A DNA stretch of 38,910 nt, taken from assembly GCA_002683405.1 (NCBI GenBank), contig NYTH01000016.1, positions 1 through 38,910 of the forward strand, in the 5' to 3' direction. A model generated the notes under the pieces. It was not told the origin of the DNA. It worked only from the letters and a program-made list of their open reading frames with translations, and ran no database searches. Source of the DNA: Salinisphaeraceae bacterium (GTDB lineage Bacteria; Pseudomonadota; Gammaproteobacteria; Nevskiales; Salinisphaeraceae). Position 1 is the first letter of the stretch, and every line of letters starts with the position of its first letter. The position numbers and the translations under genes are program-made. This document shows positions 1 to 29,033 of this stretch, piece by piece.

Positions 1-3000
1 CGCCATTCGCATCTGGGCGGCGTCAGTCCTGAGGCCTTTGAGCAGGCCTCATTTTGAGGCTCGGTCGTGTCCTCCAAACCGTGGGCAGTCCACTCAAATG
101 CCGACTCACGATCACCACGCCCAGTTATAGTCCGCACTCGCCATTCGTGGTAGCGCGCCTCGTCCGAACGCCCTACTTCATCGCGGGGTAGTTTCAGAAA
201 CTGCTGTACGAGTGGATCGATCTCATACCGCGCGAAGTCCCCATCCTTAAGCGCGGAACTCATGATGTCATCAGGAAAAAGCGATCCAGAGTAGTCCTGG
301 ACAAAGCCAGCCAGCATGTCGTCGCTGATTGCTTCTATCGGCGGCCCCGCCGAGTAAGGTGGCCGGGCCCGATCTAGCGATATGCTTGTCGGCAACACGC
401 GGCGATACGCCGCCAGCTCGGTGATACCCCGAGCGTGATCGCGAATCAACGCATGAGGCTGAATAGGGTCGTTGGCGAAAACCGCTGAGTAAGCAGCCTC
501 GGCCAATGCTGTGAGGCCCTCGTCATCACCACGACGAGTCGCGCCTCCATAGGCGGCTGCTAAGACACGATCTAGGACATAGGGATCGTTAATGCCAGCA
601 AAGTGATTGATGATATCGCTACCCAGTTCCCGCCGGTTCACCAGGAGCACTGCGAGCGCCTTGGTCGCCATATCGCGGACAATTCGGTGACTGAGGCTGG
701 TGAGCCACGCGAGGGTGATTGCTACCAACCAAGCACGACTAGGCTCGATGGCATTGAGGCCATTAGCCAACACCCATTGAATTAGCGTATTGATCGCATT
801 GCCCTCATTGGCGGCCAAGTAGGTCGCCCTGATCGACCACAGTTTGTCCCTCTCCGGCATCGACATTGGTCGTAACCAGCGGTCGAGATAGTCTGCGTTG
901 AAGGCATTGCTCGGCTCGGTTGCAATCGCGATCAGTGTGTCGAGCCACGGATCGCCGTCGAGATCGTCAGCATGTTCTTCGAGCAAATCCATGGTGCGTT
1001 GGCGAAAAGCAACCTGACGGCGCCACAACAAGCTGCTCCTGAAGGCCGGCAACAAATCATAGATAACGGTGGAGTCTTCAATGAGATCGAGAAGCTCCAT
1101 ATCGAAGCGTTCAGGCAACTGCACGGCGAAAGCCTCAGCAATGCCAGCAAAGGGATGCGCTTCTGGTCCAGCCACATACTCGCGAAGCGGTCCGGACTGC
1201 GCGAAGGCAGGTCCAGGATCGTTGTTGATAATTTCCGCATCGAGCAGCGCCTGCGCGATGCAATGATCGCTCAAGCGCTCGAAGGTAAATCGGACCAGCT
1301 CTACCAGCGACGATCCTTCAAGCACCGGTTCGACTGAAATCACACCCTCGTTCTCCAGTTGGAAGAAAAGACTCTGCTCGGCCTGATTTTGTGATGGGTG
1401 CAGCTTTTCGAATAGCGCAATGACCTCTGCGATTGGCAGAGAACCGCTTCGCGCCTCGATCATCGCCTGAGTGAGATCTTCGAGGGCGTTTTCAACAATC
1501 CGTAGACGTGGGTACAGGCCCAAACGCGCGGTTATTGCCTCAGCGACTGCTCGAAAATAAAAATCAAAGACTCCGGATACACCTTCTAGCCCTTTGGGAA
1601 GCTCCTGCTCGCCACGGCGCTGAAGCGCATCACAACAAGTCCTCAAAAAAAGCGGGTTTTCAAATTCAGGAGAGAAATTGGGTGCCGCCATTCGCACGAT
1701 GCCGCGAGCATCGAGATAGCGCTGCGCGGCTTGCGCGGCCCTGCCAGCGAAGCCTGGGTGGGCTAAGCGAGGGAGTGCTTTCTCATCAATTTCGCGGATG
1801 ATATAAGGCAGAAACGTCGTGCGACAGGATAAAATCACGGCCACATGCGGAAAGCGGTCAGCCGTGGCGAGGAAAGCCATGAGGCGGTCGGCCCATAACG
1901 CGATGCCCCCGCGTTCATTGATCGCATCTATCATGACGAGTGCGCGGGTTCCCGCTGCCTCGCCAGCGGCATCGAGCGCGCCGAGCAGTTCATCCGGCGT
2001 TGTATTGCTCAGGCCAAGTTGATCCGCGGTTTGCCGCCAAGGCTCGCCCTCAGCAAAGCTGCCCCCGAGGACCAGGACCGCAGGAAATCCTCTGTCTATG
2101 TGACGGTCCGCCACGTCAGCGAGCAGATGCGATTTGCCCGACCCCGCCTCGCCCGTCACAAGCAGTCGCTGCTCGTTCGCCATTTGGCTGCCCGGCCGCT
2201 TGATTCCGTGGGATACCCTCGCGATCACTTCGTAGAGTTGCTCCAAGAAAAACTGTACATGCTGTACCTCCTCGCGGTTTTTGTCTTTCTCTCGGCGCAA
2301 GCCCCAGATCGCCGCCGAGCAGGTGCCCAAGGCCGCGTTCACCTTATCGAGAGCCTGTATCCACGTCTCGAAAGGTACGGGATCGGCCGGACCAATCGAT
2401 GCATTTCGGACCAATCTGCTTACCGTACGTAACCGAGCATCGAGGTCCGCGCCAGCTGCTGCCGTAGGAGTTTCGGCCAGCAACTTCGCCAGCCTGTGTG
2501 TCACGCGATGCCGCGCCTCGTCGATATCGTCGGCGAAACGGGTCAAACCTTCGATGAAGCTCGGATCACGAGCGATCGCGAGTAATCCTCGCCGAATTGG
2601 CAGCTCGATATTCAGTTCAGGGGTGTAACGATTACCCAGCGCCTGACGCGTGATCTTGAACCTCGTTCGAAACCAATCAGGCGTGAATTGCAGCAAATCA
2701 AACCAATAGTGTAGCCGTCCAACGTACCGCGGCTCATTCCGTGATAGTCGTTCTATCAGCTGCGTTTCGTCCCACAATTCGATCTCTACGTTACGCGGAG
2801 ACATTGCCTTGGCGCGTGCTCTTAGCCAGCGTTTCCATCGATCTTTCTGAGAAGTGCTATTCCTGACGCGCCCGTCAGATAGATTAAAGGGCAGGCTGAC
2901 AATAAAGCGTGAAAGCGCGGGATGATGCGCGACTGCCTGGTTGAGTGATTTGGTCAGCTGTGCAGCTTCATTGCTCCCGAACTTGAAAAAATACTTCGCT

Positions 3001-3233
3001 TGCCAGCCAGTCTCAGACCCATCGGCTTCCACTCGGTAGCATTCGAGCCCGGCATCCGCACCCGCGCCTTTTCTGTGAAACGGGGCATCATCAGCCGCCT
3101 CTAGGGCGGCAAGCTGGCACACCATTTCCTCAAAACCTGTTTGCTGGCTTCCGTGGTGGGGTCGAATACTATGAAAATCTATCGTCGGTGAAGGCATGTT
3201 GACTGTCGCTTCGAGTATCGCGAAATTTCCCAT
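1..3233 (-). CDS. Avs-like STAND NTPase with N-terminal Mrr/Cap4-like nuclease domain (3' end cut by window)
   Basis: I translated this reading frame by hand. It is open from an ATG at 3233 to the window edge, giving at least 1077 residues. Residues 30-180 form a PD-(D/E)XK-type nuclease of the Mrr/Cap4 kind: a GFEE motif at 33-36, D60 in GADAGLE, and Q78-A-K80 in GWQAKY. A P-loop NTPase follows, with Walker A GEAGSGKS at 361-368, a Walker B-like VMIDAINE ending near 440 (D436), and an ILSCRT strand after it. The rest is a long helical region, the usual sensor of STAND proteins. Family knowledge: Avs proteins recognise phage proteins, oligomerise and activate the nuclease. That this one acts against phage is inferred from architecture and from lying in a mobile island. 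An alternative ATG in frame is at 3197; neither start has a strong ribosome binding site. The gene diverges from the small gene at 3353. Confidence 0.85.
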   Translation of the reverse strand, partial: MGNFAILEATVNMPSPTIDFHSIRPHHGSQQTGFEEMVCQLAALEAADDAPFHRKGAGADAGLECYRVEADGSETGWQAKYFFKFGSNEAAQLTKSLNQAVAHHPALSRFIVSLPFNLSDGRVRNSTSQKDRWKRWLRARAKAMSPRNVEIELWDETQLIERLSRNEPRYVGRLHYWFDLLQFTPDWFRTRFKITRQALGNRYTPELNIELPIRRGLLAIARDPSFIEGLTRFADDIDEARHRVTHRLAKLLAETPTAAAGADLDARLRTVSRLVRNASIGPADPVPFETWIQALDKVNAALGTCSAAIWGLRREKDKNREEVQHVQFFLEQLYEVIARVSHGIKRPGSQMANEQRLLVTGEAGSGKSHLLADVADRHIDRGFPAVLVLGGSFAEGEPWRQTADQLGLSNTTPDELLGALDAAGEAAGTRALVMIDAINERGGIALWADRLMAFLATADRFPHVAVILSCRTTFLPYIIREIDEKALPRLAHPGFAGRAAQAAQRYLDARGIVRMAAPNFSPEFENPLFLRTCCDALQRRGEQELPKGLEGVSGVFDFYFRAVAEAITARLGLYPRLRIVENALEDLTQAMIEARSGSLPIAEVIALFEKLHPSQNQAEQSLFFQLENEGVISVEPVLEGSSLVELVRFTFERLSDHCIAQALLDAEIINNDPGPAFAQSGPLREYVAGPEAHPFAGIAEAFAVQLPERFDMELLDLIEDSTVIYDLLPAFRSSLLWRRQVAFRQRTMDLLEEHADDLDGDPWLDTLIAIATEPSNAFNADYLDRWLRPMSMPERDKLWSIRATYLAANEGNAINTLIQWVLANGLNAIEPSRAWLVAITLAWLTSLSHRIVRDMATKALAVLLVNRRELGSDIINHFAGINDPYVLDRVLAAAYGGATRRGDDEGLTALAEAAYSAVFANDPIQPHALIRDHARGITELAAYRRVLPTSISLDRARPPYSAGPPIEAISDDMLAGFVQDYSGSLFPDDIMSSALKDGDFARYEIDPLVQQFLKLPRDEVGRSDEARYHEWRVRTITGRGDRESAFEWTAHGLEDTTEPQNEACSKASGLTPPRCEW

Positions 3234-3352
3234 TAAAACTACCGCTGCTTGCAGCGCAATTAATTAATGTTATCCGAGAGTTAGCTCCATATCGCTATTT
3301 ATGTCTGACGCCTAACCAGTGTCTCTGGCAGCAATCTAAACTGGAGACAACT
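3234..3352. promoter_or_regulatory. Divergent intergenic region between the STAND gene and the small RHH-like gene
   Basis: This 119-bp AT-rich stretch must hold promoters for both flanking genes. I see TTAATTAA-type sequence around 3258-3270 but no confident -35/-10 pair. A GGAG ribosome binding site lies about 7 bases before the ATG at 3353 on the plus strand. Confidence 0.4.
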
Positions 3353-3811
3353 ATGAAGGGTAAGATACAGGCGAAAAACGACCGTGACTTGTTCGAGGGC
3401 ACCGCTGACGACCCTGAAAATTTCAAGGATGAAAACGTTAGCGCTAACGTTAGCGCTAACGCCGCCGGGCCCAAAGCCGGTACCGATTGCACAGGCAATG
3501 TGCCGGCTCCAGAGGCCCAGGCGACAAACTCAAGGGAGAGCGACACAACCAAGCTGGCTTTTCTTGAACACGAACTCGCCGGCTACATCGAGACCGAGAA
3601 CGGCCAGACCACCAATATTCACGGCGTGCTCAAAACCCGTAAACCGGAGCCGTCGGGCGCAGCAGAACGGCAAGCGCGATTCAAGGAAAAGCAGATTGAG
3701 GCGGGTCTGAGAAAAATCTCGCTGTACGTGCGAGAGGAGCTTGTTGACGAGGTTCGAGAGTATGTAAAGAAGGCGAACGAGAAAGCGCAGAAGAAGAAGT
3801 CAAGCGAGTGA
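3353..3811 (+). CDS. Small protein with ribbon-helix-helix-like C-terminus
   Basis: This is a 152-residue protein I do not recognise as a named family. The first 60 residues are acidic and low in complexity, including NVSANVSAN, which is encoded by two tandem palindromes. Residues about 100-140 (from GAAERQARF through RKISLYVREELVDEV) have a basic stretch, a short beta-strand and then a helix. This is the pattern of ribbon-helix-helix DNA-binding proteins of mobile elements. The C-terminus is very lysine-rich. The ATG has a GGAG ribosome binding site. The 3' end overlaps the convergent giant recombinase gene by 12 bp, which suggests the two travel together. A role as accessory DNA-binding factor or regulator for the recombinase is inference. 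Confidence 0.6.
   Translation: MKGKIQAKNDRDLFEGTADDPENFKDENVSANVSANAAGPKAGTDCTGNVPAPEAQATNSRESDTTKLAFLEHELAGYIETENGQTTNIHGVLKTRKPEPSGAAERQARFKEKQIEAGLRKISLYVREELVDEVREYVKKANEKAQKKKSSE
3437..3460. repeat. Two tandem 12-bp perfect palindromes inside a coding region
   Basis: GTTAGCGCTAAC occurs at 3437-3448 and again directly at 3449-3460. Each copy is a perfect palindrome, and flanking bases extend the pattern by one on each side. In frame they encode the NVSANVSAN stretch of the small RHH-like protein. They could be a protein-binding site, a recombinase recognition site or a simple coding repeat. Confidence 0.85.
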
Positions 3812-6800
3812 TGTTGACACCTCTTCAGCCGCCAGCTGAATGGCGGCAACATGGCTCATGACCCATCTGACCGCAATGGTGTCGCGAACAATCACCTTGC
3901 TTGAGGATGGGTCGATACATTTTATCCGCACACGCTTGTCTGCCGCAGTTTTTGGCGTGGCCAGCTCGATAGTGACCTGGTCGTCGTTAGCCATGGCCTG
4001 GATTCTCAGCTGCTCGCCTGTATCGTCCAGTCGAATGTAGCCTCGATCACGACTGCTGGCCAACGTCCATTTCTCCAGCAGCCAGCGAAAATCGTCTGGC
4101 TGTTCGTGCCGCAGGCTGGACAACCAATCACATAGCGTGGCCGCTGCCTGTGTTGCCGTACCGGCTGCCAGCGGCGGCGGCAGCCATACACCGTCGCTAA
4201 TTTCGGCCAAATCGTGGCGCAGCGCGGCTGCGCCACGCTTGCCGGACTTCAACGACGCCAGTTGCGATAAACCATAGCGCGAGCCGTCTATCGCATCCGT
4301 TCCCAGCAAGGGTCGACCATCTCTTAACGAGCGATCAATCAATTCCAGGTGATCGAATGAAATTCGTTCATCTGTTGAGCCTTCCGTAGAGTCTTCTGCC
4401 AATAGCAGCGGGTCATTGGGCGTTTCATCGCGGCTGATCCCGGCATCTTCTAACTTCAGTTCAATCATGTCGCGCAGGGCGCGGTTGATTTCTTGTCGGC
4501 GCTGGTCAGGCTCAATCGCCTCGGCCGTTTCCCGGGCCGATCTCGACCACCGCTGCATCGTGGCCAGACTCATGAAGCGCCGCTCAAAACTGCGACTCAT
4601 GTTGAGCTTATCCAGGCCACGCAGTGCGCCAAACAACGCGAGGCAGAGAATATGTACGTAATAACGGATCGTCGTTGTGGCATGCGAGTGTCCGATCAGA
4701 CCGGACACGGCCTGCAACCCTTGCCCGGCATTGCCCTCGGACCCCAGTAGTGCAGCAATGCGGTCGCCACTGAGCGGCAAGCGCTCAACCCATGGAAACT
4801 CATCGCTGATCTGCTCTAGGTTTCCAGCATCGTGCAGTAGCGTCGCGGTCAGCCGGCTCGCAAGTGCGTGACGCAGATGGTGGGATGAGAGACTATCGTC
4901 ACCCGTCACTTTCTTTATCAGCCGATTTACCGCGTCGTAAAAATTGTCAGGATTCGCGGCCGTTGACTCGTCGGGATCGATGAGCAGACCATATTTTTGG
5001 TTACTAGCCTGACGCATCCACGCTCGGGTTTCGGGCTCGGCAAACGCCAATGGCAATGTCCGCTCAGCCCACGCAGTTTTTAGCGTGTGGTCGCCGTACG
5101 CTTGCACGCGAATCATATTGCGCTGGTAATCCAAGCTGCGCAGTGCACTGCTTTCACCTCGCCGCAACCCGAACGTAGCCATCAACTCAATGTGACGGCG
5201 GGCCGATATGCGAAGCGCCGCGTTGCCGATACCCGATCTTGCGGAAAGTAGTAAATCCAGCAGTTGCTCAATTTCGTCTTCGCACATGATTTTGGCGGAG
5301 ACCGCTCTGACCGGTGGCGGACCGAGCGGCCCCACTGCGAACCCGGCGTGGTCGGCGCTTTTGTCAGTGAGAAACGCGTGAAATTGAAACCATGCCCCGT
5401 GTTGCAGTCGGTCGGGGAAATGCTCGCGGCTGATCTCCGCCAATGCAGCAATGACGCTCTCGTCGATATAGGACCAATACGGTCCACTGGAGGTATATCC
5501 CAGCAACATCGTGGCCACGACCCGCAAACGGTTCCTGAGATAGCGTCTGCCGTAAACCTCCCAAGACTCCTCGTCCGCCGCTTTCTGGCGGGGCAGCAGC
5601 CAGAGGGCGAAAGCCTGCAACAGCCGTTCGGCCGGTGTCTCAACTGGCTGGGCGGCAATCGCTCCCTGCCATTGCTGGATATCGTCATAAAGCGGGCCGA
5701 TCAATGCCCGGAGGAAAGGTGCGCCATAGGCGACAATGTCATCAGGAATATCGCCGTCTTCTAGCTCATACTCTTTAAATGCTGGGAGTTCGCTACTAGC
5801 GCTGCGCCCTGCCCTGCGAACGGGATTCAGACCAGCCAGCCGACGCAAGTCGGGATCGCCTAGGTCCTCGGTCATCAATTCACCGCGAGCATAGGCCGCG
5901 ACGACGGGCGCCGATTCACTCATGATGCGCTGCGCGGCTGCTTCGGTCATGGCCGATAGAGTGACTCGGTGCTGCCCTGCCCCTATCGACTTGAGATAAC
6001 TGTTGATTGCCGCTTCGGCCCGGGCGCGACGTGATACCTGATTCACTCCAGGCGTTTGCCCATAGATGCCCGGCAGCAGATCGTTCTGAATGGACGATTT
6101 CTCTATGGTGAGGTAGCTGCTCGAAAACGCATCCAGACACACCGTGCGCTGCATGGGCTCGCGGGACAGTTCGCTGGTGACCTGTAGAATCTGATAACGC
6201 GCTTGGCCTACTGCCAATATTTCCATGCCGGCGTGGAGCGCCTTCAGCCAGGCATCCAGCAGGGACCAACGCGTTAATCCCAACCGCCAGATACCGATCA
6301 TTAATAGGCGTCCTAACTCCGTTCGAGTGCGGGCGGCTACCACGGCGTCTTTTTCACCGAAGAGATTCAGCCTCGTCGGCAGAATTTCGAGATCCTTTTG
6401 AAATGCCTCCAGCACGTGCACTTGGAGGTAATCGAGTGTTTGCAATCCCGCGGTGTTCAGCACAAACCGGTTTGCAAATAGCGGCCGAGGGCGCTCGGCG
6501 AAAAGGGGAATTTTTCGCTGAGTACGAATGAATTCACAGGCCGATTTTGCCAGCCGGACCAACTGCTCGGGTGACGATTTGCTGTGCGCGGCCGCGAGTT
6601 TTCGCACCAGTTCCAACGCCACGCCCGGCTCGCAGGGCCGAGATTGATCCATCAACCGTTCATAGTGCGCCGGGCTCGCGGCCTCCAGGTAGGGCTCGAT
6701 GTCGGGAATAGGTTTTTCTTCAGGGCACTTTACTGTGTTAGCCGTCCGCACTGACTTCGCCGGCATCCGCGGGGGCCTTCTGCTCCGCTGCCAGTTACCG

Positions 6801-9271
6801 CCCACGGCTAGCAATTCAAAACCCAGTTCGTCTTCCAGTTGTGTTTGCCGACTCAACATTTGCGACCTGAAATCACGTGAGTCCAGGCTACTGACGATGT
6901 GCCAGGCGTGCCGGCCTCGAGCAAAATGTCCCAGCTCGGCATCGCGATAACGGCCGGGCATGTGGGTTGTTTCGGAGCGAAAGAGTTTTCTGCCGAAATT
7001 GGCGGGTAGCGCGGTGAGCTGCTCGTCGCTCTCCTGATATTTCGGTTGATAAGGCACGACAGTGCCGTCGTGCTGAATGTACTGCAGTCGAATACTGGTA
7101 CCCGCCTCCGTCTGAACTAACGGATCCAGTTCAGGTAGCAAGACGGCTAGCTCGCTGGCCAGAGAGAGGTAGATATCAATCTGCCTTAGCAGTCCGTCGG
7201 TCAACGGTATGAGTCTGTCAGTTGATCCATCACTTCTATGCTTATCCGAGACCAATACCCAGCTTCCAGCCAGGATGATGCGAGGTACGGGTGATCGCGT
7301 TTTACGCCCGGCAGTCCCCAAGCCGAGCCAATACACCAGATACAGGGTCAGCAGGTTGTAAGCGCGAACCCAGTCGCCGGCACCTTCAGCGTTTCTTATG
7401 CGTTGCTTGATGTCTGCGATGTACTCGGAAAGGGCCGTTAGCTCGAAAGCGTGTTGCGTCCCGACGCGTGCGTTTTCCGTCTGATCTTTCTGTTGGATTG
7501 GCTCGGTCGGTAGAGAGGAACCCAGTACGATTTCAGCTGCCTTCTTCCACCATGTCGCCAACTCGCGCGCCGAGTACGACGCATAGTGGATGACGTTTTG
7601 CGTATTGGCCTCGGTGCCGTCGGTGATGGCCTTCTGAGCACCCAGATCGCCGCGCGTGATTTCGGCCAGGGCTCGGATGAACGCGTAACGCAACCCTTTT
7701 TCCGTAATCCGTAATTCGAAAGGGAAGGAGCGTAGAAGGCGGCGGGCGCTACGGACGACTTCGGCGAGCTTGTGGGCTGGATGATGCGCGACCCAATCGA
7801 TAAGCGCCGACCACTCTGTTGGCAGAGGCAATGAGATCGAATATGCGGAGGGATAACAAACCGGGGGAGGGGTTGCTTCTGCCCGCAATACCGGACGACC
7901 GCAATAGACATGAAGTCGATGGGGATTCTTACTAATAATGATCGGCGAAGTCTTGGTCGCCTCGGTGGTCTCGCCGCCAATTTCTGGCAACGCCGTTTCC
8001 TCGAGGCTTCGCCCGGTGAGTAGGCTCAGGCCGATCGCCAACCGAGCCTGTTTCCCGGTAGGGGTTTCGTCTGCTTCTTCTGGTTGCGAAATTGCTGCCA
8101 GCACGACATCCAACGCCTGCCTCGAAAGCGTAGATCTCGCCCACGGCAACTGCGCATTTTGATACTCAATCGCCGCCTGCATGGCTTTGGCGCCGTAGTA
8201 CCCTTTAATGGGCTCGGCCCCGTCGGCAAGGAAAAGGGAAAATAACGGCTCTTTCTGCTCCTCTTCCTCGGGGTCATCGTCTACCTCGGAGCGATCATCC
8301 ACTCCGAAGTCGGCGTCATCGTCGCGTGCGTAAAAATCTACGACCGTACCCGCGTGCAGGTCATCATCGTCCACGCGTAGCAGCATTTCCGTGAGATGCC
8401 GGCCACGTCGAATTTCTGGACGGACTACGCGTCTCGTACCTCCCCCACCACCACCCGATTTACGAACCCCGGCCCGCAGGTTGAGTTCATCGCCCCACAC
8501 AGTTGTGAGCAACAACGACAAAGCCGGCGGCATGACTGCCTCTAGAGCATTGATTTCGTCGCCCAGTCGCGACTCGTCGAAACCCAATTTTTCCGCCGCG
8601 TGTCGCTTCAACCGGCGCGATTCGGTGCCATCAGACAGTCGGGCAAGCCGCGATAGCAAGGTGAGTTCCAAACTTCGCTGATGGCTTAGGGTCAAACGCA
8701 TGCCATGCAAGGACGCAAGTTTCTCCCTGTTAGCCTCTTCAGCGAGATTTCTTAGTGCCAGATAAGCGTTGTAGATCCGGCTGCCGTGTCCTTGCTCCAG
8801 CAGCCTGGGTCCCTCCTCAAGCAGATACCGCTTGTACGATTCTCGTCGAATGGTACGGACGTGAAACCGCTGAACCTGCCAAATCAGCCAGGCGCACAGA
8901 TGATGAAATTGTCGCGAGTAGGCCTCAGCACGGGACCGAATCAGCAATAGCTCGCCGATCACACTGTCCCCTGTGTATGGACGCAGCGGGGTGAGTACGC
9001 TGCCGCGACTGCGGCCCAAAACCTCACCGGTAAGCACTTCGCTTACAGCATCCAGGTCCGCGATCCGATCAAGCAGCTTCAGGCGTTGACGGTACCGTGC
9101 CACTCCATCAAGGGTTGCCAATGCAGGGAACCGCTCCCGCCAGTCTCGGAACTCCCGACAAATGGGGATAATGGCGGTCAGCGATCTTGGGACCCGCAGT
9201 ATGTACAACGCATCAATTAACTCCTCGAGATCAATATCAGGCCCGAGCTCCACTTGCAGCTCGTTCAGCAC
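3800..9271 (-). CDS. Giant site-specific recombinase with two tyrosine-recombinase modules (second complete, first degenerate)
   Basis: This is an 1823-residue protein starting at GTG 9271, preceded by a strong AGGAGG. The C-terminal module (about 1330-1560) carries the full tyrosine-recombinase set: R1370 in FGLRRGES, H1464-H-L-R1467, H1528 in LIGHSHATT, and Y1537 exactly nine residues after H1528. A beta-hairpin lysine lies between the first Arg and the His-x-x-Arg. A related module sits at about 630-830, with R656 in GTAGRKT and H782 in AELGHFARG. At the position expected for the nucleophile it has W790-H791 and no tyrosine, so it is probably catalytically dead. The N-terminal 500 residues contain a glycine run near 270 and an acidic stretch (about 300-340). 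The last 250 residues match nothing I know. It overlaps the upstream gene by 7 bp and converges with the small gene at 3353. Family members cut and rejoin DNA through a 3'-phosphotyrosine. Confidence 0.85.
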   Translation of the reverse strand: MLNELQVELGPDIDLEELIDALYILRVPRSLTAIIPICREFRDWRERFPALATLDGVARYRQRLKLLDRIADLDAVSEVLTGEVLGRSRGSVLTPLRPYTGDSVIGELLLIRSRAEAYSRQFHHLCAWLIWQVQRFHVRTIRRESYKRYLLEEGPRLLEQGHGSRIYNAYLALRNLAEEANREKLASLHGMRLTLSHQRSLELTLLSRLARLSDGTESRRLKRHAAEKLGFDESRLGDEINALEAVMPPALSLLLTTVWGDELNLRAGVRKSGGGGGGTRRVVRPEIRRGRHLTEMLLRVDDDDLHAGTVVDFYARDDDADFGVDDRSEVDDDPEEEEQKEPLFSLFLADGAEPIKGYYGAKAMQAAIEYQNAQLPWARSTLSRQALDVVLAAISQPEEADETPTGKQARLAIGLSLLTGRSLEETALPEIGGETTEATKTSPIIISKNPHRLHVYCGRPVLRAEATPPPVCYPSAYSISLPLPTEWSALIDWVAHHPAHKLAEVVRSARRLLRSFPFELRITEKGLRYAFIRALAEITRGDLGAQKAITDGTEANTQNVIHYASYSARELATWWKKAAEIVLGSSLPTEPIQQKDQTENARVGTQHAFELTALSEYIADIKQRIRNAEGAGDWVRAYNLLTLYLVYWLGLGTAGRKTRSPVPRIILAGSWVLVSDKHRSDGSTDRLIPLTDGLLRQIDIYLSLASELAVLLPELDPLVQTEAGTSIRLQYIQHDGTVVPYQPKYQESDEQLTALPANFGRKLFRSETTHMPGRYRDAELGHFARGRHAWHIVSSLDSRDFRSQMLSRQTQLEDELGFELLAVGGNWQRSRRPPRMPAKSVRTANTVKCPEEKPIPDIEPYLEAASPAHYERLMDQSRPCEPGVALELVRKLAAAHSKSSPEQLVRLAKSACEFIRTQRKIPLFAERPRPLFANRFVLNTAGLQTLDYLQVHVLEAFQKDLEILPTRLNLFGEKDAVVAARTRTELGRLLMIGIWRLGLTRWSLLDAWLKALHAGMEILAVGQARYQILQVTSELSREPMQRTVCLDAFSSSYLTIEKSSIQNDLLPGIYGQTPGVNQVSRRARAEAAINSYLKSIGAGQHRVTLSAMTEAAAQRIMSESAPVVAAYARGELMTEDLGDPDLRRLAGLNPVRRAGRSASSELPAFKEYELEDGDIPDDIVAYGAPFLRALIGPLYDDIQQWQGAIAAQPVETPAERLLQAFALWLLPRQKAADEESWEVYGRRYLRNRLRVVATMLLGYTSSGPYWSYIDESVIAALAEISREHFPDRLQHGAWFQFHAFLTDKSADHAGFAVGPLGPPPVRAVSAKIMCEDEIEQLLDLLLSARSGIGNAALRISARRHIELMATFGLRRGESSALRSLDYQRNMIRVQAYGDHTLKTAWAERTLPLAFAEPETRAWMRQASNQKYGLLIDPDESTAANPDNFYDAVNRLIKKVTGDDSLSSHHLRHALASRLTATLLHDAGNLEQISDEFPWVERLPLSGDRIAALLGSEGNAGQGLQAVSGLIGHSHATTTIRYYVHILCLALFGALRGLDKLNMSRSFERRFMSLATMQRWSRSARETAEAIEPDQRRQEINRALRDMIELKLEDAGISRDETPNDPLLLAEDSTEGSTDERISFDHLELIDRSLRDGRPLLGTDAIDGSRYGLSQLASLKSGKRGAAALRHDLAEISDGVWLPPPLAAGTATQAAATLCDWLSSLRHEQPDDFRWLLEKWTLASSRDRGYIRLDDTGEQLRIQAMANDDQVTIELATPKTAADKRVRIKCIDPSSSKVIVRDTIAVRWVMSHVAAIQLAAEEVSTSLA

Positions 9272-9976
9272 TGCGAGCGCCTCCTATACCGGCTGGCTAC
9301 TTCCGCGCTCCAGGACCGGCAATAATCTGAGAACCAGGGTGATTCCGGTAAGCGGCCGGCAGCCAGCACGATACGGTGTCGATTCAGAGCAAAAACCGGT
9401 CCCATCACAGCCTCCACTCCTGCGCAGATTTCAGCGAATGACCGTGTCAATGTTGTCGATTGCGCCAACTCACGCACGCGAATGGGCCGACCCAGCAATC
9501 TGTGAAATGCCAGCATCGCCGGGATATGGTTCGCAACCACGAGATATCGGCCATTCTTGTCTGGGGGGCCGACTACGGGTGGCGCCCAATCCAACACCGT
9601 TGAGATAACGGAGTCAGGCAACGACTCCAGGAATTCCCGAGTCTGCGGTAATGGCTGAATCGGCAGTGATGCCGGAACTGCCCAAGTGAGCAGATGGGGC
9701 TGAATACGCCGCCGGATGCGGTAGGAGTGTTCTTCGAAACCGTACCGGTTGAAGGGGCAATACGCCGGTTTTGGTGTCGGTCAATACACGAGATGCCAGT
9801 TGAGAGTTGATAGCGCACAGTAGCAATGCGCGAGCCTGTTGCCTGCTACGAAGGTCGATTGGGACGTCTGTGAGGATGTCTTGCAGGAACGCGCCTATCC
9901 CACGCTTACCATTCTTGGGCAGCGGCGGCGAGAGCTCGAATAAAACGCTATCCTGGACCGATTCTGACGCGTTCAT
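9265..9976 (-). pseudogene. Frameshifted gene of unknown family in the recombinase operon
   Basis: Reading starts at ATG 9976 (MNASESVQDS) and is convincing to about 9770 (SRQQARALLL to LTDTK). In that frame it then turns into low-quality sequence and stops at 9614. From about 9769 another frame becomes protein-like (PAYCPFNRYGFEEHSYRIRR onward) and runs on to a stop at 9265. Dropping one base from the A4 run (TTTT at 9769-9772 on the plus strand) joins the two into one protein of about 237 residues. I therefore annotate one gene with a +1 frameshift. It could also be two overlapping genes, the second starting at TTG 9621, or a sequencing error. I do not recognise the family. It overlaps the GTG of the giant recombinase and probably formed an operon with it, so it may be a recombinase partner. 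Confidence 0.6.
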
Positions 9977-10163
9977 GTCTGCCCGACGGTCATTTATTAC
10001 CGGACTTTTCGCGCCTCATTTTGCATTTCATAACTGGCTTTAATCGGGCCTAGCCGGGATAGTCAACTTCGCAGAAAAGCCTTTATTTATATACTCTAAT
10101 CACGATTAACGCTGCAGAAAACCGATATACAGTTACTACACAGTTCGGGTTATGAGCGACGAG
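9977..10163. other. Right end of the island and presumed recombination junction
   Basis: An AT-rich stretch lies between the recombinase operon and the truncated tRNA. It contains a 12-bp inverted repeat, TAATC-AC-GATTA, at 10097-10108. Similarity to the tRNA ends at about 10146-10154, where CTCATAACCCGAA of the anticodon arm passes into unrelated DNA. This is the expected place for element-end binding sites. The exact crossover cannot be fixed without the left end. Confidence 0.45.
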
Positions 10164-10186
10164 CTGCCAGACTGCTCCACCCCGCA
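10144..10186 (-). pseudogene. Truncated initiator tRNA (tRNA-fMet), 5' half only
   Basis: Read on the minus strand, GCGGGGTGGAGCAG, then TCTGGCAGCTCGTC, then CTCATAACCCGAA match the acceptor strand, D-arm and anticodon loop (CAU) of bacterial initiator tRNA. Two bases of the characteristic GGG before the anticodon loop are missing (GTCGCTCAT instead of GTCGGGCTCAT). After the anticodon arm the sequence departs, with no T-arm, acceptor 3' strand or CCA. The gene cannot make a functional tRNA. It is the broken target at the right border of the island. A functional initiator tRNA gene must lie elsewhere in the genome. Confidence 0.8.
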
Positions 10187-10190
10187 CCCG

Positions 10191-10411
10191 ATGAGCGGCG
10201 CATTATAGAGATGGGATTTCGGACACGCAAGGGCAATTCGATAATTAATTGAAATCCAAGGGCGAAAGCGCTTTCGAACGCTGCTACGGCGGCCTGCCGC
10301 AGCACAAAAAACCAATGCGTACCGGTCGCGCACCAGGTCCGCGCATTCGCTCGTAATCCGGTTTTGAGACCAAATTGAGACCACGACCAAGCAGCCAATC
10401 TTCCAAACGGC
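10191..10411. other. Intergenic, no gene seen
   Basis: Apart from the tRNA promoter, this stretch holds a short direct repeat, TGAGACCA at 10365-10372 and 10376-10383, with an inverted GGTCTCA near 10426-10432. Nothing else is recognisable. Confidence 0.4.
10198..10227 (-). promoter_or_regulatory. Stable-RNA promoter of the truncated tRNA-fMet gene
   Basis: On the minus strand, TTGCGT and TATAAT are separated by 17 bases, followed by a GC-rich discriminator (GCGCC) typical of tRNA genes and then the tRNA start. This near-consensus promoter survived the insertion. With the tRNA truncated, it reads directly toward the recombinase operon beginning at 9976. Confidence 0.7.
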
Positions 10412-10560
10412 TCACTTTTGACCGTCGGTCTCATTCACCGCTGGCACGTGTTCGGCCACCTCTCCTACCCCGCACTCAAAGTATTCGCACAACTTGTCGG
10501 CGGTATCGATTTCCACGTTGTAGCGCTTGTTGTTGGCCAGCTTGGAAAGCGTCACGCAGA
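10412..10560 (-). pseudogene. C-terminal remnant of a Cro/CI-type HTH regulator
   Basis: The minus-strand frame ending at TGA 10412-10414 reads TLSKLANNKRYNVEIDT, then DKLCEYFECGVGEV and VPAVNETDGQK. This is the C-terminal part of the short HTH_26-type regulators, which normally begin about 30 residues earlier with the first HTH helices. Upstream the frame continues open without a start and loses similarity (CREADARPAVC), so the N-terminal half has been lost. Its position beside the broken tRNA marks this as an integration or deletion scar. Confidence 0.7.
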
Positions 10561-10632
10561 CAGCTGGCCTTGCATCCGCTTCCCTACATAGCGCCGCGCC
10601 AACACACTGTGTAACGACGCTGAAGCGAGCCG

Positions 10633-11433
10633 CTAGCGGCCGTTGAAATGCGGCCGGCGTTTCTCCACGAAAGCCTTGGCGCCTTCGACAAAGTCATCCG
10701 TGCGGCCGCAAGCGCACTGCAGCTCGCGTTCGAGCTGGAGCTGCCCGTCGAGCGTGCCGGACTGGCCGGTGTGAATGGCCTGCTTGATGTGCCCCAGCGC
10801 CTTCAGCGGGCCTTTCGACAGCCGCGTAGCCAGCGCCAGGCCGGCTTCGGGCAGCGCCTCGTCCTCGACCACGTCCCAGATCAGGCCCCAGTCGCGCGCC
10901 TGCTCGGCGGAAATCCGCTCGCCCAGCATTGCCATGCCCATGGCCCGCTGGGGCCCGACGGCCTGACCGAGCGTGTAGGTGCAGCCGGCATCCGGCATGA
11001 GCCCGATGTTCACGAATGCCTGCAGAAAATAGGCCGATCGCGCGGCGATGGTCAGATCGGCCGCCATGGCAAAGCCGGCGGCGGCGCCGGCCGCCACGCC
11101 GTTGACGGCGGCCACAACGGGCTTCGGCGTGTCGCGCATGGCCTGAACGAAGGGGTTGTACAGATCTTCCAGCGCCAGCCCCAGGTCAAGCTGGCCGTCG
11201 CTTCCCCGCGGCAGATCGTTCGGGTCGCCGCTCAGGTCGGCGCCGGAGGAAAAAGCGCGCCCTTCTCCGGTCAGCAGAATGGCGCCGATGTCCGGATCCG
11301 TCGCCGCGGCATTGAACGCGGCAGTGAGCTCCTTGATCAGTTCCGGCGACAACGCGTTGAGCGACTTCGGGCGGTTCAGCGACAGCACGGCCACTTTCTC
11401 TTCTCTGCGGACAATCAGGTTTTCGTATTCCAC
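10633..11433 (-). CDS. Enoyl-CoA hydratase/isomerase family protein, PaaG-like
   Basis: This is a 266-residue crotonase-fold protein. The start is a GTG at 11433 with an AGGGAG ribosome binding site; an upstream extension to 11457 lacks one. The fold is shown by GRAFSSGADLSG (about 59-69) and NGVAAGAAAGFAMAAD (about 111-126), which build the CoA and oxyanion sites. The classical second glutamate is replaced by aspartate D148 in NIGLMPDAG. That aspartate is the signature of PaaG-type ring-epoxide isomerases and related Asp-type isomerases. No other phenylacetate genes are nearby, so the substrate is uncertain and may be an unsaturated acyl-CoA from fatty-acid breakdown. It lies downstream of an AraC regulator on the same strand, with a strong hairpin between them. 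Confidence 0.8.
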   Translation of the reverse strand: MEYENLIVRREEKVAVLSLNRPKSLNALSPELIKELTAAFNAAATDPDIGAILLTGEGRAFSSGADLSGDPNDLPRGSDGQLDLGLALEDLYNPFVQAMRDTPKPVVAAVNGVAAGAAAGFAMAADLTIAARSAYFLQAFVNIGLMPDAGCTYTLGQAVGPQRAMGMAMLGERISAEQARDWGLIWDVVEDEALPEAGLALATRLSKGPLKALGHIKQAIHTGQSGTLDGQLQLERELQCACGRTDDFVEGAKAFVEKRRPHFNGR

Positions 11434-27935: not shown

Positions 27936-28007
27936 TAACGCGGCGTGGGGCCGGGCGGGGTTTCATCAGCGGGTCCCGAAGCCATCGTTCAGCTTCGAGT
28001 GCCCACC

Positions 28008-28193
28008 TTATTTCCGCCAATGATTGATTCTCTGGCGCATCTCCTGGTTCGAGATGATTCGGCCCGCCTCTGCATCCGCGATTCCCCTTTGAATCATTAA
28101 TTCAATCGCCAGTTCGCGGATCAATTCCTCCAATGTCGAATCATCGGGCTGCAAAGCCAGCAGTTGCTCATTTTCCTGTTTCGCCGTCGTCAT
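28008..28193 (-). CDS. Small orphan antitoxin-like protein
   Basis: This is a 61-residue acidic protein, MTTAKQENEQLLALQ to QRINHWRK. The ATG 28193 has a very strong GGAGGTGA ribosome binding site, which decides the start over a longer open frame to 28334. The pattern RELAIELMIQRGIADAEAG then RIISNQEMRQRI resembles the short helical antitoxins (DNA-binding or toxin-wrapping tail) paired with RelE/ParE toxins. No toxin gene follows it, since only 72 bp remain before the HicB-like gene. It diverges from higBA. Confidence 0.6.
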   Translation of the reverse strand: MTTAKQENEQLLALQPDDSTLEELIRELAIELMIQRGIADAEAGRIISNQEMRQRINHWRK

Positions 28194-28286
28194 AAATTCA
28201 CCTCCGTTACATATTGGGATTTTTCGTACAGCGGTAGGCATCCTGGAACATAACGAGTCTTGATTACGCTCGAAACTCAGCCAGTC

Positions 28287-28315
28287 TTGACTAGTGTCGC
28301 CTGTCACACGACAAT
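28287..28315 (+). promoter_or_regulatory. Candidate promoter of higBA
   Basis: TTGACT (28287-28292) and GACAAT (28310-28315) are spaced by 17 bases. The higB GTG begins only 7 bases after the -10, which would give a leaderless or nearly leaderless message. The -10 is weak, so this is tentative. Confidence 0.35.
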
Positions 28316-28321
28316 GATGAC

Positions 28322-28600
28322 GTGATTCGATCATTTCGCCATCGTGGCCTCAAGGCGTTGTACGAGGGGCGGACTACTAAGCGGGTTGATCCGGAGCACC
28401 GCGAGAAACTGCAAGATATCCTCACCTTGCTCGATGCGGCCAATGTCCCGGAGGGCATGAACCTGCCCGGTTTGCGCCTGCATCTGCTCAAGGGGAAATT
28501 GCGAGGCCACCATGCGGTGAGTGTATCCGGCAACTGGCGGGTGACGTTTCGATTTGAAGGCGGCGATGCCTTCGATGTGGATTACCAGGACTATCATTAA
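28322..28600 (+). CDS. higB: HigB-type toxin (RelE/ParE superfamily mRNA interferase)
   Basis: This is a 92-residue protein of normal length, starting at GTG. The family landmarks are IRSFRHRGLKALYEG, then MNLPGLRLHLLKGKLRGHHAVSVSGNWRVTFRFEGGDAFDVDYQDYH, which I recognise as HigB. It is expected to cleave translated mRNAs at the ribosome. The antitoxin gene starts 10 bases downstream (toxin first, the usual order for HigBA). It diverges from the small antitoxin-like gene and lies in the gap between the second fecR and its receptor. Confidence 0.92.
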   Translation: MIRSFRHRGLKALYEGRTTKRVDPEHREKLQDILTLLDAANVPEGMNLPGLRLHLLKGKLRGHHAVSVSGNWRVTFRFEGGDAFDVDYQDYH

Positions 28601-28609
28601 GGGTTGGTT

Positions 28610-28900
28610 ATGAGCATGGCACAACCGCGACATCCGGGCGGCATCATCCGCCGGCAATGCCTGGAACCGCTGGGGCTGACCGTGACCGCGGCGGCCGAGG
28701 GGCTCGGCGTGACGCGGCAGGCTTTGTCGGATTTGGTCAACGAGCGTGCCGGCGTGTCGGTGGACATGGCCATTCGCCTGTCCAAGGCATTCGGCAGCAC
28801 CCCGGAAACCTGGCTGGCAATGCAAACGGCCTATGACCTGGCCGCCGCCCACCGGCGCGGTGCAGACCGCGTCGCGGTGCGGCGCTTCGAGGCGATTTGA
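28610..28900 (+). CDS. higA: HigA-type antitoxin (XRE family HTH)
   Basis: This is a 96-residue protein from ATG 28610, after AAGGG. The XRE HTH is at about 25-65 (LTVTAAAEGLGVTRQALSDL, then VNERAGVSVDMAIRLSKAF), with the HigA landmark GSTPETWLAMQTAYDL after it. It neutralises HigB and represses its own operon. ATG 28616 is an alternative start. Confidence 0.92.
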   Translation: MSMAQPRHPGGIIRRQCLEPLGLTVTAAAEGLGVTRQALSDLVNERAGVSVDMAIRLSKAFGSTPETWLAMQTAYDLAAAHRRGADRVAVRRFEAI

Positions 28901-28928
28901 TTCGCATATTACCGCCATAAGGCAGGAT

Positions 28929-28988
28929 GGCGGCAAGGGATTGCCGCCCTACGGTCAAACACGGGTAGGTCGGCATCTCCTTGCCGAC
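28929..28988. repeat. Pair of REP-like inverted repeats
   Basis: Two adjacent hairpins: GGCGGCAA-GGGA-TTGCCGCC (28929-28948) and GTCGGCA...TGCCGAC (28969-28988). They share the GGCA...TGCC core, as in REP/BIME-type intergenic elements. They sit between higA and the siderophore receptor. Confidence 0.6.
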
Positions 28989-29033
28989 GGGTTCGGCTGA
29001 CTCCGGGCCTGCCGCAACCGGAACGCAGGCAAG

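Follow-up and report, generated by a model that had tools for sequence, protein, structure and literature searches.

Gamma-mobile-trio elements combine a recombinase, a large integrase, and a small protein beside cargo that may include defense genes, and in Tn554 and RIT elements the recombinases are separate proteins, smaller than the one described below. SE elements, as set out in two studies (PMC9345347, PMC10214605), encode a conventional recombinase, a second protein that has the recombinase fold but lacks the catalytic motif, a large recombinase, and a small protein that is essential (IntA-Tfp-IntB-Srap); they use few selected target sites, carry variable cargo, and circularize with a strand bias, without an empty donor site and with a 6-bp footprint. 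One SE element is contained in pAQU1 (PMC9345347 or PMC10214605). GInts are described as having a ginABCD operon, which encodes several recombinases, one of them catalytically incomplete, together with a small protein (PMC5385486). Tn554 and RIT elements also carry more than one recombinase (in part after PMC10214605). In this study, we analyzed contig C16 (NYTH01000016.1) from the draft assembly of a Salinisphaeraceae bacterium (GCA_002683405.1, here G000), whose entire 38910 bases are referred to as the window. Its first 10186 positions, at the contig start, hold an Avs2-type defense gene cut by the contig edge, a gene for a giant tyrosine recombinase of 1823 amino acids (aa), a frameshifted small gene, and a fragment of tRNA-fMet (Table 1).

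We consider it probable that positions 1-10156 are the left end of a genomic island inserted in the anticodon loop of tRNA-fMet, the other end lying outside the window, and that the small and the giant gene form a mobility module acting together with a conventional integrase. In the open-licence literature, no description of this family of giant recombinases was recognized.

Probable insertion at tRNA-fMet

On the minus strand, the tRNA-fMet fragment and its promoter region (10144-10254) are identical at 110 of 113 bases to the intact tRNA-fMet locus that this genome has on contig C45, which bears out the truncated initiator tRNA noticed in a preliminary description of the sequence. ARAGORN and Rfam returned no tRNA in the window, as expected for a fragment, and the intact gene on C45 means that the truncated copy is not the sole one. 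The intact gene is preceded by a gene for a 407-aa integrase with Arm-DNA-bind_2 and Phage_integrase domains and followed by genes resembling rimP, nusA, infB, rbfA, and truB; here and below, gene names without a Pfam, NCBIfam, or PADLOC assignment were given by eye. C45 also carries an open reading frame (ORF) for a 312-aa recombinase-like protein, which on inspection by eye belongs to the short Xer or integron type (L041:3141-4079, plus strand).

The arrangement recurs in other genomes. In G052, G084, and G195, a truncated tRNA-fMet likewise precedes the small and the giant gene, with the orientation unchanged, and thus four of the five genomes with a full-length giant, plasmids excluded, have it at this site. 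In all four, the inner DNA starts with CTCATAA and a related end motif, that of G195 being least alike. The repeats shared by the truncated and the intact copy measure 131 bp (93%) in G000, 178 bp (86%) in G084, 60 bp (93%) in G052, and 125 bp (89%) in G195, which is what an element carrying a promoter and 5′ half of its own should produce. An integrase of one family (400-471 aa) is encoded upstream of the intact tRNA-fMet in all five genomes, and no match to this family at E <= 1e-20 was obtained in the tRNA-fMet regions of two relatives without the giant (L042, L043). On one contig and the same strand, the left end and the intact tRNA-fMet are about 62 kb apart in G084 and about 79 kb in G045. 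As in tRNA-integrated islands, a tRNA fragment marks one end and an intact copy with an integrase the other, on one contig in G084 and on separate contigs in G000. The G+C content is 54-59% across the ten 1-kb steps of positions 1-10000, 59% at 10001-11000, and 62-68% in 26 of the 27 remaining steps, the exception being 28001-29000 with 58%.

According to the mechanism we propose, the island would enter the anticodon loop of tRNA-fMet and, on integration, provide a new promoter and 5′ half, by which an intact tRNA-fMet would arise at the other end, on C45 beside the 407-aa integrase, and the old 5′ half would stay behind as the fragment in the window. The small partner and the giant would be carried as a two-gene module at the left end and, by analogy with SE elements, GInts, and Tn554, might act jointly with the integrase on the att sites. 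TR4, the last of four recombinase-like regions of the giant, would be the sure catalyst that cuts and joins, with the remaining folds binding DNA and holding the synapse. The sequences show the anatomy of the module, its correspondence to a gene pair, and the recurrence of both the tRNA-fMet site and the integrase; we infer the joint action, the share of each enzyme in the choice of the site, and the mobilization of the cargo. Since a conventional integrase is found at the intact-tRNA end in all five genomes, targeting of tRNA-fMet cannot be credited to the giant alone.

Several observations weigh against this reading. The end in G045 lies in a coding gene, where the motif follows TTCATAA at the start of a putative monooxygenase gene (by eye). 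In G000, G052, and G195, the two ends are on separate contigs, the link between C16 and C45 being deduced and the island not read through. No empty site was found, and the right flank of the window differs from the upstream neighborhood of tRNA-fMet in G007 or G010, so that an older insertion or a rearrangement must be assumed. Excision and circularization of the island are postulated from its sequence. Finally, the small gene of the window is broken into ORFs of 118 and 120 aa whose frames differ. Its homologues form one uninterrupted ORF of 223-259 aa in G084, G052, G195, and one Acinetobacter plasmid, and the frame in G045 is likewise open; the gene of the window is therefore frameshifted, in reality or through assembly error, and this copy may be inactive or immobile.

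The DNA flanking the truncated tRNA-fMet looks native in G052, with an upstream tRNA-Leu and genes resembling ftsH, folP, glmM, tpiA, and secG (by eye), and the flanks in G000, G084, and G195 are unlike it. Following the island of G052 along contig C37 did not lead to its far end; the intact tRNA-fMet of this genome is on contig C2. Right of the fragment in the window, at 10365-10383, two TGGTCTCA repeats stand 11 bases apart and are like repeats that G084 has upstream of its intact tRNA; this flank of the window may be the old end of another element. Arm-site-like repeats upstream of the intact tRNA are suggestive by eye, and a simple pattern occurs in two of the five genomes and in the window flank; no claim is based on them.

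All four truncated genes have lost bases directly beside CTCATAA, namely 2 in the window, 18 in G084, 1 in G052, and 2 in G195 (sites: window 10150-10160, L046 at about 11450, L048 at about 11740, L151 at about 13045). The loss perhaps locks the element in or silences the half tRNA. A strict pattern search for the fragment in ten stretches of G045, G052, and G084 gave no match, which does not show absence, since the pattern failed to detect even the shortened G084 fragment, and the G052 fragment sits in another stretch.

Correspondence of the giant recombinase to two adjacent genes

In other Proteobacteria, two adjacent genes, hereafter called split pairs, together match the giant recombinase end to end. 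Its N part matches the first gene of about 860 aa (hhalign P 99.2, E 1.6e-19) and its C part the second gene of about 1000 aa (P 99.9, E 7.7e-32), as judged with profiles drawn from pairs in four other genomes; further pairs came from scans of class and phylum genomes. The giant is one polypeptide in which each half apparently comprises two recombinase folds. It is not simply a double recombinase, as the preliminary description had called it.

Both full split genes were present at 15 loci among the stretches searched, and these loci bear on the question which protein moves the island. The integrase of about 400 aa might do so alone, with the giant and its small partner as passengers beside attL that take no part in integration, a possibility that deserves attention although we think it unlikely. 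It would agree with the presence of the integrase at the intact tRNA end in every one of the five genomes, with the eight full split loci at which no integrase match was found within the fetched stretch, and with the Acinetobacter unit described below, which occupies numerous sites on plasmids and whose annotated regions show no integrase of this kind next to it. However, the left end of the island coincides with the giant's own end in four of five genomes, and the integrase family is found within the stretch at the other seven split loci (three of them being rows of the profile itself), which points to cooperation.

Two further giant ORFs, of 1862 aa (L152:13288-18876, minus strand) and 1913 aa (L165:6272-12013, plus strand), match the split-pair profile and only weakly the fused family; they are perhaps independent fusions. 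At L155, L156, and L162, split loci lie among chromosomal-looking genes without an integrase match within the stretch, possibly as small autonomous elements.

Probable recombinase folds and catalytic residues

The large recombinase ORF of the preliminary description is real, with a Pfam Phage_integrase match at aa 1329-1475. When segments of the giant were compared with 31 ordinary recombinases by hhalign, TR1, TR2, and TR4 reached P 92.3, 94.9, and 99.5, respectively; as controls, three other segments gave P 0.4, 4.6, and 0.4 and reversed profiles 0.1. The structure model of TR1 matched Xer 4a8e with Z 8.5 over 159 residues (root-mean-square deviation, rmsd, 4.4) and that of TR3 with Z 9.6 over 147 residues (rmsd 4.0). 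Rows 1-25 of the TR3 structure matches were tyrosine recombinases and fold relatives (topoisomerase, protelomerase), with unrelated proteins at Z <=3.9. From these profile and model comparisons, the giant likely consists of four tyrosine-recombinase-like folds, TR4 complete and TR1 to TR3 each short of part of the catalytic set; this remains unproven because the models are of low confidence and matches of Z <8 are common, as the comparison tool itself warns.

The weaker parts of this assignment are TR2 by fold and TR3 by sequence, and a number of results speak against it. TR3 had no sequence support against the 31 ordinary recombinases (P 1.1), and the fold match of TR2 was a single row, the Tn1549 integrase (Z 6.8, 150 residues, rmsd 3.8). 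The two structure models had mean predicted local distance difference test (pLDDT) values of 55.9 and 60.4. For the N half, Foldseek gave 11 matches with E values up to 10, the P2 integrase among them (E 9.9), and none at E <= 0.001, which shows neither presence nor absence of the fold. As a test for internal repeats, mutual alignment of TR1 to TR4 was unconvincing (best values P 48.2 for TR1-TR4 and P 13.3 for TR2-TR4), and the N and C profiles of the giant matched each other with P 3.6. A sequence search of the PDB with alignment A1 retrieved nothing meaningful (best E 0.075).

The catalytic residues of TR4 (R1370, K1398, H1464, R1467, H1528, and Y1538) are conserved in all 14 fused proteins, several of which are near-identical Acinetobacter sequences that make the independent number smaller; with split proteins added, they are found in 24 of 24, except for H1464 (23/24). 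The four TR2 residues R656, K677, R761, and H782 are kept in 14/14 fused proteins and in 23/23 with split proteins, and TR2 of the fused proteins has no tyrosine at the expected place (by eye). In TR1, Tyr563 aligns to the catalytic tyrosine and is present in 14/14 fused proteins and in 22 of 23 in the set that includes 16 split proteins; a conserved second arginine is missing (by eye). Tyr1127 of TR3 is found in 14/14 and, with split proteins, in 18/24.

Tyrosine recombinases act as tetramers of separate chains, and Flp lends its tyrosine in trans. The giant might accordingly be a single-chain recombinase assembly, with a composite active site in its first half in which Tyr563 of TR1 serves the R656-K677-R761-H782 pocket of TR2; we regard this as doubtful. 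Two findings count against it and slightly lowered our already low estimate: the consensus of the split N proteins has a tyrosine about 16 residues past the histidine, and R421 of TR1, present in 14/14 fused proteins, is found in only 17 of 23 with split proteins. If the composite site were true, each chain would, with TR4, have two active sites; a pair of chains could then build a complete asymmetric synapse, and in the split form one N and one C protein on each side could do the same.

Relatives and the unit in Acinetobacter

Three genome sets, which overlap, were searched for relatives of the giant. Any match was found in 9 of the 146 genomes of the relatives search, the window's genome included, with full-length giants in G045, G052, and G084 and domain matches only in the other five. 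Among 369 class genomes, 30 had any match; G195 has a full-length giant, and the remaining genomes gave partial matches, often to ordinary short recombinases. The giant of G195 was reported with two TAG in the stretch, yet it lies inside an open frame of 1825 aa in the ORF listing. The 398 phylum genomes yielded no further full-length giant. Identity between the main groups of fused proteins compared is 26-36%, with 55% between G045 and G084.

Among plasmids, 42 records matched, all from Acinetobacter and with about 30% identity, and 38 of them had one place covering at least 80% of the query. A first scan of genome contigs with P0001 revealed no relative, and a scan with alignment A1 gave 12 loci, namely nine in Acinetobacter, one each in Hydrocarboniphaga and Solimonas, and one, incomplete, in a bin of an uncultured Wohlfahrtiimonas. 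The block conserved in Acinetobacter measures about 6-6.5 kb and extends from about 150 bases before the small gene to within some hundred bases past the giant, the right border being less sharp than the left.

Because the left flanks at ten Acinetobacter loci are of nine distinct kinds, one pair being shared, mobility of the two-gene unit of small gene and giant is supported. These flanks, the G045 end at TTCATAA within a coding gene, and the flanks of the G084 and window fragments, which resemble ends of other integrase elements, would also suit a module that is an independent transposon with a preference for CTCATAA-like sites and that landed in tRNA-fMet fragments left by other elements. 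We rate this as improbable, since it is hard to see how four of five copies would come to lie at one position of a single tRNA without targeting of an att site.

Small partner gene

In the other four genomes, as in the eight Acinetobacter regions inspected, the giant has a small gene ahead of it; one Acinetobacter region, L019, is interrupted there by insertion sequences. No convincing homology was detected between the small proteins of the fused and the split forms (P 4.5). The preliminary description had expected a 237-residue and a 152-residue protein to accompany the recombinase beside varied defense cargo at tRNA-fMet or another fixed site. For the former, the recurrence of the gene ahead of the giant agrees with this, but the window version is the pair of ORFs described above. 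The 152-aa protein, tried as a conserved partner, was rejected: phmmer retrieved no homologue among the ORFs of 32 other stretches, and its weak resemblance to the plasmid repression protein UrfF (22.5 bits) is below the cut-off of 100.

Features of the window and cargo

The features at the left end of the window are compiled in Table 1.

Table 1. Positions of the features at the left end of the window
Feature	Position	Strand	Basis
Avs2-type STAND defense gene (cargo), first 1077 aa, 3′ end past the contig edge	3..3233	-	ORF listing, PADLOC, NCBIfam
152-aa small protein, weakly UrfF-like, not a conserved partner	3353..3811	+	Profile scan, phmmer
Giant tyrosine recombinase, 1823 aa	3800..9271	-	ORF translation, Pfam, hhalign
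TR4, aa 1290-1560, complete recombinase domain (R1370, K1398, H1464, R1467, H1528, Y1538)	4592..5404	-	Pfam, profile comparison
TR3, aa 980-1150, recombinase-like fold from structure only, catalytic set unrecognizable	5822..6334	-	Structure match; sequence test negative
TR2, aa 606-815, recombinase-like, R656, K677, R761, H782 kept, expected tyrosine missing (by eye)	6827..7456	-	Profile and structure match
TR1, aa 375-586, recombinase-like fold, Tyr563 at the catalytic position	7514..8149	-	Sequence profile and structure match
Small partner gene, here in two frames (118 + 120 aa)	9265..9976	-	ORF listing
Left terminus of the element, AACTGTGTAGT-type motif, common to G052, G084, G045, and partly G195	10130..10145	-	End comparison
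Truncated tRNA-fMet, 5′ part, 2 bases lost beside the core	10144..10186	-	Comparison with intact locus
CTCATAA, anticodon loop of tRNA-fMet, putative crossover core	10150..10156	-	Comparison with intact locus
Promoter region of tRNA-fMet, repeated at the intact tRNA end on C45	10187..10254	-	Comparison with intact locus

The Avs-like cargo gene proposed earlier was confirmed as Avs2: the protein matched the PADLOC profile PDLC02164 with 1180 bits over positions 2-1033 of 1504. Its NCBIfam score of 634.8 bits is under the cut-off of 1000, the protein being truncated by the contig edge. A search for a second piece of Avs2 elsewhere in the genome gave no match. Together with the tRNA-fMet fragment, Avs2 supports the mobile island with defense cargo that had been suspected. 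Upstream of the integrase on C45, a TIR-domain protein (PADLOC TIR families; L041:1445-2482, minus strand) is possibly the island's second defense gene.

Twenty proteins from the neighborhood of these recombinases were selected by eye, and PADLOC matched 16 of them at E <= 1e-5, in some cases weakly or to a general profile; a selection of this kind shows that defense genes occur, but neither how often nor whether they are enriched. Strong matches were CBASS genes in G020, PDC-S06 and a QatC-like protein in G084, BrxL and PglZ in G825, JetC and JetD in G622, and a type I-F Cas3 in G049, and split relatives stand beside CBASS, BREX, Wadjet, and type I-F CRISPR genes. A type I-F Cas3 gene lies close to a split N-C locus at L052:15507-18821 (plus strand). 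A scan of 101 proteins, each 250 aa or longer and drawn from 18 further stretches, gave 35 PADLOC families at E <= 1e-20; the 25 families shown include RtcR-CARF (two proteins) as well as DrmD, CARF/Csx1, PD-T4-6, and mad6 (a single protein each; locus unassigned).

Three cargo proteins of G052 had no PADLOC match, and by eye the cargo comprises polysaccharide-type genes in G195 and metal-efflux-type genes in G045. BREX genes stand beside the unit in two of eight Acinetobacter regions and not in the other six, where annotation is incomplete and the L020 stretch ends less than 1 kb past the giant. The occurrence of homologues without cargo, part of what the preliminary description had listed as a point against its proposal, is thus borne out in part; the cargo consists of defense genes in several cases, not in all.

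Comparison with known element families

The locus points to a multi-recombinase family of mobile elements in which one end holds a fused giant and integration recurs at an essential initiator tRNA, which would be repaired on insertion; the family is a further carrier of defense genes such as Avs2. If the four folds hold, the giant would be a natural single-chain version of a recombinase assembly, an unusual build for a DNA-moving machine, and would offer a direct test of why such elements need catalytically incomplete partners.

The gamma-mobile-trio resembles this organization in having a recombinase, a large integrase, and a small protein beside cargo. Membership of the trio was rejected, in line with the earlier suggestion of a distinct family: the NCBIfam models of GmtY (NF040693), GmtZ (NF047926), and GmtX (NF040692) matched none of the proteins tested, namely those of the window, the split proteins, and the C45 integrase, with GmtX also compared with the small proteins. 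By hhalign, alignment A1 gave P 0.2 against GmtZ and P 0.1 against GmtY, the maximum being P 8.9 for TR4 against GmtY. As a positive control, the three models do match a true trio in G195 (L091; 441, 908, and 200 aa). The GmtX model had no match in the window's own genome and matched in one of 185 genomes, G195. This genome carries both a gamma-mobile-trio (L091) and a giant recombinase (L151).

With SE elements, by description, the island seems to share the logic of a conventional recombinase, an incomplete fold protein, a large recombinase, and a small protein, along with few selected target sites and variable cargo; it differs in that two large genes are fused and the integrase is at the opposite end of the island. 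The SE proteins of pAQU1 were taken as those of 545, 614, 671, and 161 aa, assigned by gene order. Against these four single-sequence targets, the whole N and C profiles revealed nothing beyond the recombinase fold (C against the 545-aa protein, P 17.7), and the best match was that of TR4 alone to the 545-aa protein (P 56.0, again a single-sequence target).

GInts are similar by description in placing several recombinases and a small protein at one end of a cargo island, and they are set apart by description alone, through a single ginABCD operon without a fused giant in the available text (PMC5385486). By description too, Tn554 has more than one recombinase and a small accessory protein, and RIT elements have more than one recombinase. 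Both differ, again by description alone, in that their recombinases are separate, smaller proteins rather than a fused giant. Overall, the island described here appears to represent a multi-recombinase element family that resembles SE, GInt, and Tn554 in its logic, without homology beyond the fold where the proteins were compared.

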